Of a DNA stretch of 54,581 nt, positions 1-49,916 are shown one piece after another (the first letter of the stretch is position 1; every line of letters starts with the position of its first letter). Origin of the DNA: Candidatus Paceibacter sp. Lineage in GTDB: Bacteria > Patescibacteriota > Minisyncoccia > UBA6257 > JAGOQP01. Made by a program: the position numbers and the translations under genes. The notes under the pieces were generated by a model, which saw only the letters and a list, made by a program, of their open reading frames with translations, did not search any database and was not told where the DNA came from. Location: positions 1-54,581 of the forward strand of contig DYGB01000005.1 of the NCBI GenBank assembly GCA_020724905.1. Reading direction: 5' to 3'.

Positions 1-84
1 GGAATTGAGCTTCGCTCACCGATTGATATGGTTCCAAGGTCTTGAACTTATTACACCCCTGTGTAGAGGGGTTGATGAGGGAAG

Positions 85-5195: not shown

Positions 5196-6473
5196 ATGAA
5201 CAAGAAGTTTTCAGATACAGCCTCCTTTACTCTGGTTGAGTTGCTCGTTGTCATCGGTATTCTTGCCATCCTTACCGCTACCGTTGTTATTATATTAAAT
5301 CCCGCAGAACTTCTTAGGCAAGCCAGAGACTCTAACAGAATGACTGATCTTGCCACCATCGACAAAGCAATCTCTCTTCTTCTCACCCAACAACCAGATA
5401 CTAATCTGGGAACAGCTCAGACTGTGTACGTGTCACTTCCTGACACCTCTTCGACCTGTACTAGTCATACTCTTCCCTCACTTCCCGCAGGATATCAATA
5501 CAATTGTGTCACCGAAGCAAATCTTCAAAATATCAATGGAACAGGTTGGATTCCTGTGGATTTTACCACCACCCCCATCCAATCCCTTCCGGTTCTTCCT
5601 GTTGATCCTAACAATACTGCCACCAACTACTACACCTACACCATGGGAGGTTCGTGGCATCTCCTTACTCTCTTAGAATCAAACAAACACCGTGTTGATG
5701 CAGCAACTGATGGAGGACTCTCCCCAGCTGCCTATGAAACAGGTTCAAATCTCACTCTCTATCCTCCGACCTTCCCCGCATACTGGATCAGAGTCCCTGG
5801 AAGCTCTACCCATGGAACCTCAGACTTTTACGTTATGCAGTATGAAGCAAAGAATGTATCAGGTGTTCCTACTTCTCAACCTTCCCTTACCCCCTGGGTC
5901 TCTATTTCTCAAACCAATGCTATCGCTGAGTGTCAATCCATTGATGCAGATCTTATCACCAACGCTCAATGGCAAACCATCGCATACGACATTCAACAAC
6001 AACCACAAAACTGGTCAGGAGGATCAGTGGGATCAGGCTCTATTCACCGAGGAAACTCAAATACTTCAGCAGCTATGGATGGAACAGACCCTCTCTCAGG
6101 AGTCAACAAGAGAACACACGTCCTTTCCACTGGAGCTGAGATATGGGATATTGCAGGAAATGTATGGGATTGGAACAAAGACACCATTATTGGAACTGAC
6201 AAACCAGTGGGAGGAGGAGCTGCCTGGGTTGAATGGACTACTGTCCTTGATTACGGCTCATTAGATGAAGAAGATGTAAAACCATTTAATACTTCATGGA
6301 ATTCCTCTCAAGGAATTGGTCGTTATTACCAAGGAACTGCAGATGGTACTACGTATGCCTTTCTACGCGGCGGGGGTTGGGCCGATGGCACGGTTGCGGG
6401 GGTTGAGGCGTTGGCTCTGGCCCATATTCCTTCCAGCACGTACAGCTACATTGGGTTCCGTTGTGCCCGGTAG
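5196..6473 (+). CDS. DGR variable (target) protein: prepilin-like N-terminus plus FGE-sulfatase/C-type-lectin domain
   Basis: N-terminal 'FTLVELLVVIGILAILTATVVIILNPAELLRQARDSNR' (type IV prepilin/pseudopilin motif); 'IWDIAGNVWDW' FGE-sulfatase motif; C-terminus 'FLRGGGWADG...IGFRCAR' lies in the VR. Confidence 0.93.
   Translation: MNKKFSDTASFTLVELLVVIGILAILTATVVIILNPAELLRQARDSNRMTDLATIDKAISLLLTQQPDTNLGTAQTVYVSLPDTSSTCTSHTLPSLPAGYQYNCVTEANLQNINGTGWIPVDFTTTPIQSLPVLPVDPNNTATNYYTYTMGGSWHLLTLLESNKHRVDAATDGGLSPAAYETGSNLTLYPPTFPAYWIRVPGSSTHGTSDFYVMQYEAKNVSGVPTSQPSLTPWVSISQTNAIAECQSIDADLITNAQWQTIAYDIQQQPQNWSGGSVGSGSIHRGNSNTSAAMDGTDPLSGVNKRTHVLSTGAEIWDIAGNVWDWNKDTIIGTDKPVGGGAAWVEWTTVLDYGSLDEEDVKPFNTSWNSSQGIGRYYQGTADGTTYAFLRGGGWADGTVAGVEALALAHIPSSTYSYIGFRCAR
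6357..6472 (+). repeat. DGR variable repeat (VR)
   Basis: 116 bp, no indels against TR 6928-7043; 18 mismatches, all at TR adenines; invariant 3' segment attgggttccgttgtgcccggta (IMH). Confidence 0.97.
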
Positions 6474-6516
6474 ACCCGTAGCAATCTAGTTATCTAATAA
6501 TCTTCAAACAATCGAT

Positions 6517-6897: not shown

Positions 6898-6927
6898 GAA
6901 GTAGTATGAATCGTCTATAAAGCGGAA

Positions 6928-7043
6928 GCCTTTCTACGCGGCGGGAATTGGAACAATGGCACGAATGCAGGAGTTGAGACGTTGAATCTGAACAATATTC
7001 CTTCCAACACGAACAGCAACATTGGGTTCCGTTGTGCCCGGTA
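6928..7043 (+). repeat. DGR template repeat (TR)
   Basis: AAY-rich template aatTGGaacaatGGC...; matches VR except at 18 of its 31 adenines, 0 changes at 85 non-A positions. Confidence 0.97.
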
Positions 7044-7188
7044 TACATATAGGGAAAAAGTTTGTGGCCCGAATATGAAAAATATATTTTTTTATATCTG
7101 CGCCATCATGTCTACTGATTCATATTATCCCCCCACAAAGAGGGGAACACCGTGCGTGAATACTGTATATGCCATGTGTATACACAGC

Positions 7189-44506: not shown

Positions 44507-44580
44507 GGCCCCATCGTCTAGCCTGGTCAGGACGCAAGGTTTTCATCCTTGAAACACGGGTTCAAATCCCGTTGGGGTCA
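44507..44580 (+). tRNA. tRNA-Glu(TTC)
   Basis: GGCCCCA...TGGGGTC A, loop TTTTCAT; 3' tail repeated downstream three times. Confidence 0.95.
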
Positions 44581-44679
44581 CAAAGAGGGAAATATATACA
44601 GTACTTGACTTTTCTATAAATATATGTAACAATATATACATAGTTATTTTATAATTTCATACAACAAAAAGGTGAAGAA

Positions 44680-44904
44680 ATGAAAAAAACATCAAGTTTT
44701 TTAGTAGACGAACATAATCCCCCAACTTCCCAAAACACTGTTAAGCATGAGAAATCTCCGTTTGATGACCCAGAGATTAGGGAACTTTGGGATATGGTTT
44801 TTAACGATAAGGATAGGATAGAACGTGAAAAGAAAGAAATGGAACATGAAATGGACCTATTATTAGAAAAAGGACAGGGACGTGGTACCGGTAGTTGGTT
44901 ATGA
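44680..44904 (+). CDS. Cassette A small ORF (74 aa, charged)
   Basis: own TTGACT promoter region, RBS aaaggtgaag, followed by terminator 44937-44967. Confidence 0.65.
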   Translation: MKKTSSFLVDEHNPPTSQNTVKHEKSPFDDPEIRELWDMVFNDKDRIEREKKEMEHEMDLLLEKGQGRGTGSWL

Positions 44905-44970
44905 AAGAAAAAACAAGGTGTTATTGATTTATTTTAATCCTCTCTTTTATTAAAAGAGGGGATTTTTTAT

Positions 44971-45029
44971 CCAAATACCACTAAGCTCTCACATGCCCGG
45001 TTCCAAAGTTGTCCCGTTGGGGTCACAAG
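44971..45029 (+). repeat. tRNA-Glu 3'-tail repeat R1
   Basis: ...ggttccaaagttgtcccgttggggtcacaa; last 17 nt (tcccgttggggtcacaa) identical to the tRNA-Glu 3' end and flank. Confidence 0.88.
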
Positions 45030-45115
45030 ATTAATATTGACTTATAATTAATAACTATGTATAATAGATACATAGCTCTTTTAAATATTTAAAAACAAAC
45101 ATAGAGAGGAATCTC

Positions 45116-45763
45116 ATGGAACTATCTATAATATGTATCGCTATCGGTATAGGGTTGGTTGTCTCTCTGCTTATATATAGAAGCAGTAAAAAGAAAGCCA
45201 AAGAAGAGGAACTACTAGTGCCCTTTAGAGTGTTCTGGAATGATCAAATAGAAATACTTTTAAACAACCATTTTCCTTTAGCTGTTATCAAACAACTCCA
45301 GCTGAAGAGAGAAAAGATCCTTGCAATAGCAAAGGAATTAGATGTTCCGGAAGGTCACACGCCATTTATTCTTATTATCCCTAAAAAATACTGGGATAAA
45401 GAATATCCAAAACGCACAGGGGTTGATGTTAATAACATTGAAAACATAGTAGATACCCCCTCAGAGCCATATGCGATATTTGATATCGAGGATGGTTCAA
45501 AACATCGTGGATATTCACCTAGGGAAGCACAAAAAATATTAGAAGAAGAAGGTAGATCACCTCTTACTGCAGAAGAATGTATTATGTTTGCGCAGTACGT
45601 GCCTGTACTAAAAGACCATCATCTTAACTGTACCGGATCCCGCTGTCGGGGTGACGTCCCCGGTGTCTACCTGTCTGGCGGTGAGATGCCCAGGCTCAAC
45701 TGGCGCAGCCTCGAGTTTGGCGGTGTCGGGTGGGGGTCTCCCTCGTGCCGCAGTCGGCACTAG
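45116..45763 (+). CDS. Cassette B: membrane-anchored protein with candidate hypervariable C-terminus
   Basis: N-terminal TM; AT-rich body; last ~45 codons GC-rich, A-poor and mostly NNC/NNT. Confidence 0.75.
   Translation: MELSIICIAIGIGLVVSLLIYRSSKKKAKEEELLVPFRVFWNDQIEILLNNHFPLAVIKQLQLKREKILAIAKELDVPEGHTPFILIIPKKYWDKEYPKRTGVDVNNIENIVDTPSEPYAIFDIEDGSKHRGYSPREAQKILEEEGRSPLTAEECIMFAQYVPVLKDHHLNCTGSRCRGDVPGVYLSGGEMPRLNWRSLEFGGVGWGSPSCRSRH
45632..45763 (+). other. Candidate DGR variable region with no TR in this window
   Basis: about 13 A in 132 nt, 31 of 44 codons end in C/T; perfect hairpin GTGCCG-CAGT-CGGCAC (45745-45760) at the 3' end, directly before the stop. Confidence 0.5.
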
Positions 45764-45790
45764 GTCCCTTTGCCCTCGGTTTGTATCATA

Positions 45791-45822
45791 GACGGTTATA
45801 TTACATATGACCGTCTTTTTTT
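45791..45822 (+). terminator. Cassette B terminator GACGGT...ACCGTC-TTTTTTT
   Basis: stem-loop plus T-run. Confidence 0.8.
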
Positions 45823-45833
45823 ATCCAAACACT

Positions 45834-45882
45834 ACTAAATTGGCATACAAATGGTTCCAAAGTTGTCCCGTTGGGGTCACAA
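45834..45882 (+). repeat. tRNA-Glu 3'-tail repeat R2
   Basis: 49 nt identical to R3 (46244-46292): actaaattggcatacaaatggttccaaagttgtcccgttggggtcacaa. Confidence 0.93.
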
Positions 45883-45986
45883 AGAGAGGGGATACATACC
45901 ATATCTTGACTTTTATATAAATATATGTAATAATATATATGGAAAATTTACATATTTTTTATAACAAAAACAATAAGAGGTAAAAA

Positions 45987-46184
45987 ATGAAAAAGCATCA
46001 AGTTTCTTTGGAAGATGAATTTTTTAACAAAAAAATTATCTTAGCGCCAGACGACTTCGAAGATGATGGAATTGAAGAAGAAATACTCACTCCTATTATA
46101 GAATATGATGTTGCGGAACGTGAAATTGGTCGTTCCCTTCAGGAAAAATATTCTAGGGAAAACTGGATGTATGAAAAATGGTGA
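45987..46184 (+). CDS. Cassette C small acidic ORF (65 aa)
   Basis: promoter region near-identical to cassette A; RBS; terminator 46205-46232. Confidence 0.65.
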   Translation: MKKHQVSLEDEFFNKKIILAPDDFEDDGIEEEILTPIIEYDVAEREIGRSLQEKYSRENWMYEKW

Positions 46185-46204
46185 TATTTTGCCTTATACC
46201 TTTG

Positions 46205-46232
46205 CCCCCACTTACTTGTGGGGGATTTTTTT
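46205..46232 (+). terminator. Cassette C terminator CCCCCAC-ttactt-GTGGGGG-ATTTTTTT
   Basis: perfect 7-bp stem plus T-run. Confidence 0.85.
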
Positions 46233-46243
46233 ATTTAAAAACC

Positions 46244-46292
46244 ACTAAATTGGCATACAAATGGTTCCAAAGTTGTCCCGTTGGGGTCACAA
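46244..46292 (+). repeat. tRNA-Glu 3'-tail repeat R3
   Basis: identical to R2. Confidence 0.93.
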
Positions 46293-46364
46293 GAATAATG
46301 TTGACTTCATTTAGTAAGCTGTATATAACAGATATAGTTTCTTTAGAGAAAGGAGGTGATAGAA

Positions 46365-46457
46365 ATGAAGCGTTGGAATATTCCAGCTGTGAGACATTGT
46401 AATGAAGGTTGTTGTATATGCCCTGATATTTTTTTATATCAGGGCTTTTTAGTATGA
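46365..46457 (+). CDS. Cassette D micro-ORF, Cys-rich 30 aa MKRWNIPAVRHCNEGCCICPDIFLYQGFLV
   Basis: not in the ORF track; very strong SD aaaggaggtgat 5 nt before ATG; TTGACT-N17-TATAAC promoter; terminator overlaps its 3' end. Confidence 0.45.
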   Translation: MKRWNIPAVRHCNEGCCICPDIFLYQGFLV

Positions 46458-46526
46458 AAAAGACTAAATCTTTATCTATCTATACATTTAGGGTAGTATA
46501 AAGGAACAGTAACGTATATATCTACT

Positions 46527-48405: not shown

Positions 48406-49916
48406 GAAAAGATACAACAGTGTATAGAGCAATGGAGATATTTCCTGCAGTTCTTTCATGGGGAACCTTTGTGCTCTTTATTATTCTTTCCTTCTTTCTT
48501 CCTCTTTGGGTAGCTATTTTTATCATTCTCTTTGATGTGTATTGGTTTTTTAAAACAATGCACTTTTCTTTGTATCTTCGAAATAGTTACAAAAAGTTAC
48601 GCAAAAACATGAGAACTTCATGGTTGCGAAAACTACAGACAGATCCACAAACAAAAGATCTATGGGAAGACATATATCACCTTGTTATCCTTCCAATGTA
48701 TAAAGAGGATGAGGGGGTAGTACGAGGGGCACTAGAAAAGCTTGCACAGATACGCTACCCACAAGAAAAACTCATCGTCGTTCTTGGTCTTGAGGAAAGG
48801 GCAGGGGAGAAGGTACAAGAAATGGGAAAGCGTATGGAGAAAATGTTTGAAGGAGTGTTTTATGATTTCCTTGTTACTTCACATCCAAAAGATATCCCAG
48901 GAGAAGCTCCAGGGAAAGGATCAAATGAGGCATGGGCAGCCAAAGAAGCAAAAGAAAAAATTATCGATACAAAGGGAATTGACTACGCATCAGTGATGGT
49001 ATCTGTATTTGATATTGATACGCAAGTCTATCCACAATACTTTGCAATTCTTACCTATACCTTCCTTACCACTCCCGACAGGTTTCATGCCAGCTATCAG
49101 CCTGTTCCATTTTTTTTGAACAATGTTTTTGAAGCCCCAGCACTCTCTCGTATTATTGGATTTTCAGGAACATTTTGGCACCTCATGCAACAGATGGTAC
49201 CAGAAAAGCTTGTTACCTTCTCATCTCATTCCATGCCATTCCAAGCCGTTATCGATATAGGGTATTGGCAACGAGACATTGTATCAGAAGATTCACGTGT
49301 ATTTTTCCAATGTCTTCTTCACTACAATGGAAACTGGAGGACAGTACCTCTCTTTTATCCTGTTTCAATGGATGCCAATGTTGCACATTCTTTTTTTCAA
49401 ACACTGGTAAATATATACAAACAACAGAGACGATGGGGGTGGGGATCAGAAAACATCGCGTTTATCGCTCAGGGGTTTAGAGAAAATAAACATATTCCTA
49501 CGTATAAAAAGATATACTGGCTATTCCAGCAAATAGAAGGATTTCATTCATGGGCGACAAATGCAGTTATTATCTTCTCTTTAGGGTGGCTCCCTATATT
49601 TCTTGGTCCAGAATCATTCCGGGTTACACTTCTCGCATATAACCTTCCTTCTATTACGCAGTGGATTATGTTGGGAGCATCAGTGGGTATTATTACCACT
49701 GCAGTGCTTAGTATTGCGCTTCTTCCCCCAAAACCTCCTACATTTCGATGGTATCATTATCTTTGGTATCTTCTTTCCTGGGCGCTTATGCCATTTTCTC
49801 TTATCATCTTTGGATCTCTTCCAGCTCTTGAGGCTCAGACACGACTCGCACTTTCAGGGAAGTGGAGACTTGATTTTTGGGTCACTCCAAAGCATAGAAA
49901 AGAGAAAGGAAATTAA
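48396..49916 (+). CDS. Membrane glycosyltransferase (GT2-like)
   Basis: 'HLVILPMYKEDEGVVRGALEKLAQIRYP', 'VSVFDIDTQVYPQYFAILTY', 'VSEDSRVFFQC', 'QQRRWGWGSENI'. Confidence 0.82.
   Translation: MHVRKDTTVYRAMEIFPAVLSWGTFVLFIILSFFLPLWVAIFIILFDVYWFFKTMHFSLYLRNSYKKLRKNMRTSWLRKLQTDPQTKDLWEDIYHLVILPMYKEDEGVVRGALEKLAQIRYPQEKLIVVLGLEERAGEKVQEMGKRMEKMFEGVFYDFLVTSHPKDIPGEAPGKGSNEAWAAKEAKEKIIDTKGIDYASVMVSVFDIDTQVYPQYFAILTYTFLTTPDRFHASYQPVPFFLNNVFEAPALSRIIGFSGTFWHLMQQMVPEKLVTFSSHSMPFQAVIDIGYWQRDIVSEDSRVFFQCLLHYNGNWRTVPLFYPVSMDANVAHSFFQTLVNIYKQQRRWGWGSENIAFIAQGFRENKHIPTYKKIYWLFQQIEGFHSWATNAVIIFSLGWLPIFLGPESFRVTLLAYNLPSITQWIMLGASVGIITTAVLSIALLPPKPPTFRWYHYLWYLLSWALMPFSLIIFGSLPALEAQTRLALSGKWRLDFWVTPKHRKEKGN

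Follow-up and report, generated by a model that had tools for sequence, protein, structure and literature searches.

Behind its tRNA-Glu(TTC) gene, the window (the whole stretch of DNA analysed, 54.6 kb) carries an array of small units separated by copies of the tRNA tail. We consider it probable, at roughly 0.55, that these are gene cassettes stacked by successive site-specific insertion at the 3′ end of the tRNA gene. The window's own genome (G000) alone represents its genus and was compared within a set of 13 genomes of its family, while a survey with a covariance model covered 243 genomes from 172 genera of the order. G000 and the relatives are metagenome-assembled genomes, whose size and gene content suggest that the lineage belongs to the Patescibacteria.

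Units behind tRNA-Glu(TTC)

The features of the array, together with a dispersed repeat at the start of the window, are as follows (window coordinates).

1-55, minus strand: repeat X, which shares ATGGTTCCAA with R2 and R3
44507-44581, plus strand: tRNA-Glu(TTC), the proposed docking tRNA (ARAGORN, Rfam RF00005); tail at 44567-44583
44604-44638, plus strand: promoter region of unit A, repeat family D7; 94% identical to that of unit C
44680-44904, plus strand: ORF A, 74 aa, from the ORF list; sole match DUF6576, sub-threshold
44937-44969, plus strand: terminator of unit A, hairpin and T run, from the sequence; the hairpin folds
44999-45028, plus strand: R1, left arm GGTTCCAAAGTTG and tRNA-Glu tail, from repeat comparison
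45037-45065, plus strand: promoter of unit B, TTGACT-17-TATAAT; its start ATTAATATTGACT is common to units of the tRNA-Asn array
45116-45763, plus strand: ORF B, 215 aa, DUF5701-related; GC-rich 3′ end, 65% GC
45790-45822, plus strand: terminator of unit B, from the sequence
45834-45882, plus strand: R2, 49 nt identical to R3
45905-45939, plus strand: promoter region of unit C, repeat family D7
45987-46184, plus strand: ORF C, 65 aa, from the ORF list and family searches
46204-46233, plus strand: terminator of unit C, from the sequence
46244-46292, plus strand: R3, 49 nt identical to R2
46301-46329, plus strand: promoter-like sequence of unit D, TTGACT-17-TATAAC, from the sequence
46365-46457, plus strand: ORF D, 30 aa, ATG at 46365; runs into its own terminator

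The tRNA tail, TCCCGTTGGGGTCACAA, starts at 44567, 45012, 45866 and 46276 and is the sole 17-mer with four occurrences in the window; 14 different 17-mers are present at least three times, every one of them part of the tail repeat. The three displaced tails (45012-45028 in R1, 45866-45882 in R2 and 46276-46292 in R3) belong to a 30-nt sequence, GGTTCCAAAGTTGTCCCGTTGGGGTCACAA, that is invariant among R1, R2 and R3. The spacing from copy to copy is 445 nt for unit A, 854 nt for unit B and 410 nt for unit C. Exact tail copies far exceed chance expectation. A search of the whole genome finds TCCCGTTGGGGTCACAA outside the array only once, at the end of tRNA-Glu(CTC) (C4:71434). R1–R3 were also considered as strong hairpins, and this was ruled out by their weak folds.

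The initial annotation described a stack of cassettes parted by tRNA-Glu tail copies, and most of its particulars stand: the fourfold tail, the identity of R2 and R3 over 49 nt (45834-45882 and 46244-46292), ORFs of 74, 215, 65 and 30 aa, near-identical promoters of A and C (94% over 35 nt), and units free of integrase, the ORF list and family searches giving no recombinase or integrase among the ORFs of the window units. R1, which it ended at 45029, ends at 45028. The promoter, ORF and terminator it gave to every unit are found in A, B and C, each closed by a repeat, but D has no closing repeat, so the array comprises three closed units and material after R3. ORF D is doubtful as a gene.

Searches of the cassette ORFs with PADLOC, PHROGs, Pfam and NCBIfam assign no family except DUF5701 for ORF B. 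The latter has a paralogue in G000 (C7:86897-87520, 46%) and few distant relatives within the order; scans of viral contigs and GTDB contigs yield none. Its 3′ end is a stretch of 65% GC (45620-45770, window average 39% GC) encoding CTGSRCRGDVPGVYLSGGEMPRLNWRSLEFGGVGWGSPSCRSRH, and this GC-rich end is also kept in the C7 paralogue. The promoters and start-codon regions of A and C are related; past those the two proteins are unalignable, and mutual comparison of ORFs A, B, C and D gives no full-length similarity. A duplication of the whole block (A and B giving C and D) was rejected, the likeness being confined to promoters and start regions. Elsewhere in the window, a 124-nt tandem-like repeat occupies 6352-6475 and 6923-7046 (83% identity).

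A second array and dispersed repeats in the same genome

The second array consists of one-gene units behind tRNA-Asn(GTT) on the minus strand of contig C5, from about 49.5 to 43 kb. The tRNA gene (49514-49832; L057:8514-8832) carries in its anticodon loop a group I intron of 245 nt without an ORF (RF00028, E 5.8e-20), which intron-aware ARAGORN confirms. Its tail, GTCCTACCACCGGAGCA, is followed immediately by CTAATATTGACT, the promoter of a 435-aa ORF, and then by more one-gene units. Two inner sites of this array read CCAACTTCGTCCAACAACCAGRGCACTAATATTGACT, a degenerate tail with an identical unit start. The array sites, CCAACTTCGTCCAACAACCAGAGCACTAATATTGAC, are similar to the tRNA end, GTTCGAGTCCTACCACCGGAGCACTAATATTGAC, and being degenerate would not base-pair in an acceptor stem. 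The sequence TTCCAANNTNGTCC is common to the left sides of the tRNA-Glu and tRNA-Asn array sites. Another shared element, TAATATTGAC, has seven matches on both strands of 186 kb of G000, all seven at starts of array-type units, one of which is unit B of the window. The promoter regions of unit B and of the unit at the C5 end are 74% identical over 97 nt. A scan of 36 G000 tRNAs gave tail copies at no other tRNA.

The second glutamate tRNA gene, tRNA-Glu(CTC), is followed by a unit-type start, GACTAATAT, and then by the dispersed repeat X, where the assembly breaks. Repeat X (55 nt) is present at both ends of C1, at the C4 end behind this tRNA and at the start of C6; it is uncertain as a member of the cassette system. 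Repeat Y (55 nt) occurs at the starts of C3 and C7 and at the end of C5, and is followed by TTGAC promoters. The cores of X and Y are inverted, CCTTGGAACCA and TGGTTCCAAGG, and an intact palindromic relative lies at C5:43236-43268. As a lead, X and Y might be the two ends of one G000 hairpin whose middle is unassembled. A separate repeat family, GCCATATGTNTNTGCACATTA, is located directly upstream of TTGAC promoters at the ends of C2 and C7, at C7:87700 and at C3:5145; one copy precedes the ORF B paralogue. Contig C8 (L061, 5.4 kb) carries ParB-like, AbrB-like and nuclease-like genes and is perhaps a plasmid or a fragment of an element. Viral contigs containing the 17-mer or the X/Y core were set aside, as the matches are unrelated phage tRNA sites or coding sequence.

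Tail-bounded units and hairpins in relatives

Copies of a tRNA's own tail (at most one mismatch in 15, 30–400 nt downstream) are found behind 14 of 42 tRNAs in relative G005, 9 of 39 in G003, two of five in G009 and one of three in G004; none lies behind the 22 tRNAs of G011, and the 400 nt upstream of the surveyed tRNAs contain no own-tail copy. When the tails of other tRNAs served as a control (G003 and G005), 12 of 3,286 trials matched. Relatives thus place units behind many tRNA species. At tRNA-Glu(TTC) itself, G005 has two units. The first carries a promoter, a 218-aa ORF and a terminator and ends in an exact tail copy at +995; the second is short and gene-free, and the copy that bounds it at +1174 has one mismatch. 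In G006, the flanks of this locus are collinear with those of G005 (77–81% identity), but 295 nt rather than 1,258 nt lie between them; the 218-aa gene is missing and short remnants are kept.

Most units in the relatives are gene-free hairpins of about 115 nt. The left arm of the hairpin, just after the tRNA terminator, is the reverse complement of the T-loop and T-stem of the host tRNA, and the right end is a copy of the 3′ strand of the T-stem and of the acceptor strand. In 26 of 28 units, the left end fits the unit's own T-arm better than those of other tRNAs (Wilcoxon p 3e-6, an indicative value given that the units are related to each other). A side case is a minus-strand stretch of G126 C1 (L264:3151-3617), where three hairpin units stand in tandem behind tRNA-Arg(TCT), two of the three closed by exact tail copies.

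A common fold for all units together was sought with MAFFT and abandoned: the units split into classes. Alignment A1, made by sequence before folding, contains ten units (three genomes, nine tRNA types) and gives a three-way junction of 34 pairs, 26 of which show changes on both sides. The covariance model built from this alignment (model R1, E up to 1e-3) matches 60 of the 243 genomes and 37 of the 172 genera of the order. Among its 30 best loci, 27 are behind a same-strand tRNA, and 21 of those 27 end in a tail copy. Twenty further loci, which are tRNA-rich, were picked for neighbouring matches; 38 of their 43 matches lie within 500 nt behind a same-strand tRNA (random expectation 14%), 24 matches have a tail copy within two mismatches, and 23 tRNA species are represented. 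A second hairpin class (model R2) is present in 25 of 41 relatives. Rfam 15, run against nine loci including hairpins, returns tRNA and chance-level matches and nothing else. A DNA-pattern search of GTDB contigs for one hairpin type recovers the known relatives and one further genome; its other matches, in unrelated bacteria, were discarded.

Hairpin units are also associated with genes. Model R2, trained with the short G005 tRNA-Glu unit included and the gene-bearing unit left out, finds the end of the latter, the 218-aa-gene unit (L018:2638-2761, E 4.4e-8). The tRNA-Asn locus of G005 has a hairpin unit (L211:482-599) with a tail copy, directly followed by TTGACTT and then one ORF and a terminator, much as at the beginning of the G000 tRNA-Asn array; the ORF is listed at 131 aa and measures 112 aa from the ATG that follows a Shine-Dalgarno site. 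The two cases together indicate that units occur both empty and loaded. G000 itself has no match to either model, so its arrays are joined to the hairpins of relatives by layout and not by homology of the sites; what links them is the tail-bounded layout that they have in common, together with the loaded units of G005.

Some units have changed places. In G005, the sequence past the Pro(TGG) tail copy is 91% identical to that right behind tRNA-Pro(CGG), the reciprocal comparison gives 97%, and the tails of the two tRNAs are identical. At Ser(CGA) of the same genome, the copy matches Ser(GCT) in tail and terminator (94%), and at Arg(TCT) of G003, 35 of 35 nt past the copy are identical to the sequence downstream of Arg(CCT). 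These swapped sequences indicate that units have been passed between loci with like tails, and either site-specific or homologous recombination would fit such exchange.

Proposed insertion, rival explanations and implications

The only PF00589 match in G000 is a 302-aa chromosomal Xer (C7:170317), which makes it the sole tyrosine recombinase available there. It falls below the cut-offs of the NCBIfam XerC and XerD models and just above that of an XerA-type model; its closest relative in the PDB is E. coli XerD. Against the integron integrase model it scores 104.9 bits (cut-off 265), and the genome has no intI integrase. Eleven of the 13 family genomes, G000 among them, have one PF00589 match, G008 has two and G002 none. 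As with Xer-mobilised modules, a host Xer is present in the genome and no recombinase in the module. Xer may take part in moving the units, or may do no more than resolve chromosome dimers.

Three kinds of known systems resemble the present one in part. The present arrays resemble integron cassettes and CALINs (attC arrays without an integrase; reviews include PMC8618304 and PMC8876359) in that small units, most of them with a single gene of unknown function, follow one another and end in a recombination site, here a putative one. In the relatives studied here the putative site is a conserved hairpin, and in both systems an array may lack an integrase. Unlike integrons, the present arrays begin at tRNA genes and not at attI, in a genome without intI, and every unit of the window array was found to have its own promoter or, in D, a promoter-like sequence. 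The hairpin differs from attC in being a three-way junction with a stem of host T-arm sequence; by eye, its ends are T-arm sequence and not RYYYAAC/GTTRRRY, and R1–R3 of the window fold weakly. Genomic islands and satellites that target tRNA genes (Islander, PMC4383910; hitcher elements, PMC11389934), among which elements moved by others are known, share with the present units the 3′-end insertion proposed here, restoration of the tRNA and a displaced tail copy at the far end. In the window and in relatives alike, the tRNA is intact and such a copy closes the unit, but the present units are 0.4–1 kb or about 150 nt long, integrase-free and in tandem, at many tRNA species per genome. The p-dif (dif) modules that XerC/D of the Acinetobacter host mobilises (PMC13141974, PMC12907356) and IMEX (review, PMC5357621) are small recombinase-free gene modules with short bordering sites that are thought to be moved in trans by host Xer; their sites are inverted and dif-like, whereas those described here are tRNA tails in direct order, with use of Xer as a proposal. 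The whole looks like an undescribed system of integrase-free cassettes that dock at tRNA ends. Searches of open PMC papers on cassettes, tRNA sites, Xer and the lineage brought up no such system, a weak sign of novelty.

In this reading, every unit combines its promoter, single short gene and terminator with a terminal attachment site, the last formed by a unit-specific left arm joined to the copy of the tRNA tail (about nt 60–73 plus CACAA). Since the tail would travel with the unit, the tRNA would be intact after every insertion. Lacking a recombinase gene, the units would be moved in trans, with the chromosomal Xer, the one tyrosine recombinase of G000, as the candidate for an enzymatic, site-specific reaction. 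The hairpins of the relatives, with their basal stem of host T-arm sequence, may be the attC-like site of the same kind of system, perhaps acting as folded single-stranded DNA, and the G000 units may descend from hairpin-bearing ones. One integrase with one site does not easily explain why tails are exact at upwards of 20 tRNA species; that would require tRNA-specific units or tails acquired otherwise. Serial insertion of trans-mobilised units, as the initial annotation had it, is partly supported by the second array, the units of relatives, the loaded unit, the covariance hits and the recombinase counts; tail-bounded units and exchange between loci likewise favour insertion at the tRNA end, and a recombinase acting in trans stays a proposal. 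The second array and the structured hairpins of relatives had escaped the initial annotation.

The rival that survives best, itself rather unlikely, is a duplication independent of recombination: replication would slip or switch template at tRNA hairpins and so copy tail, terminator and hairpin in tandem, after which RecA would swap units between loci with like tails, and genes would be caught by chance. The same terminator follows both tRNA and copy at Ile, Ala and Met in G005 and at Gly and Ala in G003, as tandem duplication would equally produce; promoter and start-codon region are common to A and C, R3 repeats R2, and the loci between which units were exchanged have the same or nearly the same tails, a pattern that homologous recombination would give. 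In most other units, however, the sequence after the copy is unlike that after the tRNA, and ORFs A, B, C and D are mutually non-homologous over their length. Slippage also leaves unexplained a conserved unit body of uniform size that starts right behind the tRNA and keeps its fold in many genomes. A single local tandem duplication with the same cassette set everywhere, the outcome that the initial annotation had set against its own proposal, is at odds with the second array, the units at many tRNAs of relatives, content that varies among them and the exchange between loci.

There is a smaller probability that the units are decayed integrative elements (phages, satellites or plasmids) left with one cargo gene or none. 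The tRNA 3′ end is the classical target of tyrosine integrases, displaced tails mark such insertions (Islander, PMC4383910), and the cassette genes, ORF B with its DUF5701 apart, belong to no known families. Decay would hardly be expected to yield short uniform units behind as many as a third of a genome's tRNAs and spanning 23 tRNA species, nor a strongly conserved fold; the units examined contain no integrase relic, and nothing related turned up in the viral contigs scanned. A slim chance goes to the hairpin being a functional structured RNA or a retro-element targeting tRNA ends; the tail would then be a target-site duplication or primer copy, and the gene units passengers. The covarying three-way junction and the stem fitting each host tRNA would suit it, and a target-copying process is the simplest source of exact tails at many tRNA species, but a terminator usually separates tRNA and hairpin, folded single-stranded DNA accounts for the same facts, and the hairpin is absent from the G000 arrays. 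An assembly artefact or chance resemblance is highly improbable: G000 contig ends do carry repeats related to the array sites, but the array is internal to a contig with unique sequence on either side, the layout recurs in many independent genomes, and a threefold 30-nt repeat is beyond chance.

Stacking of cassettes by insertion at the tRNA end thus stays our preferred account of the window. More tentatively, and with less than even probability, the whole may represent a new kind of mobile unit, widespread in the order, with structured sites assembled from the T-arm and tail of the tRNA in front of them. Such units would occur behind upwards of 20 tRNA species, carry a gene in some cases and move between tRNA loci without a recombinase of their own; the window array would then descend from them as a loaded form poor in hairpins. 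The wider pattern in relatives adds interest beyond the single array. If true, it would explain gene gain and exchange in very small genomes nearly devoid of mobile-element machinery: cassettes would dock at tRNA ends, and a single household recombinase may serve them all. It would also yield many uncharacterised cassette genes and two structured element families outside Rfam, as far as checked, and a system of tRNA-derived hairpin sites beside integrons would make the origin of folded recombination sites testable.
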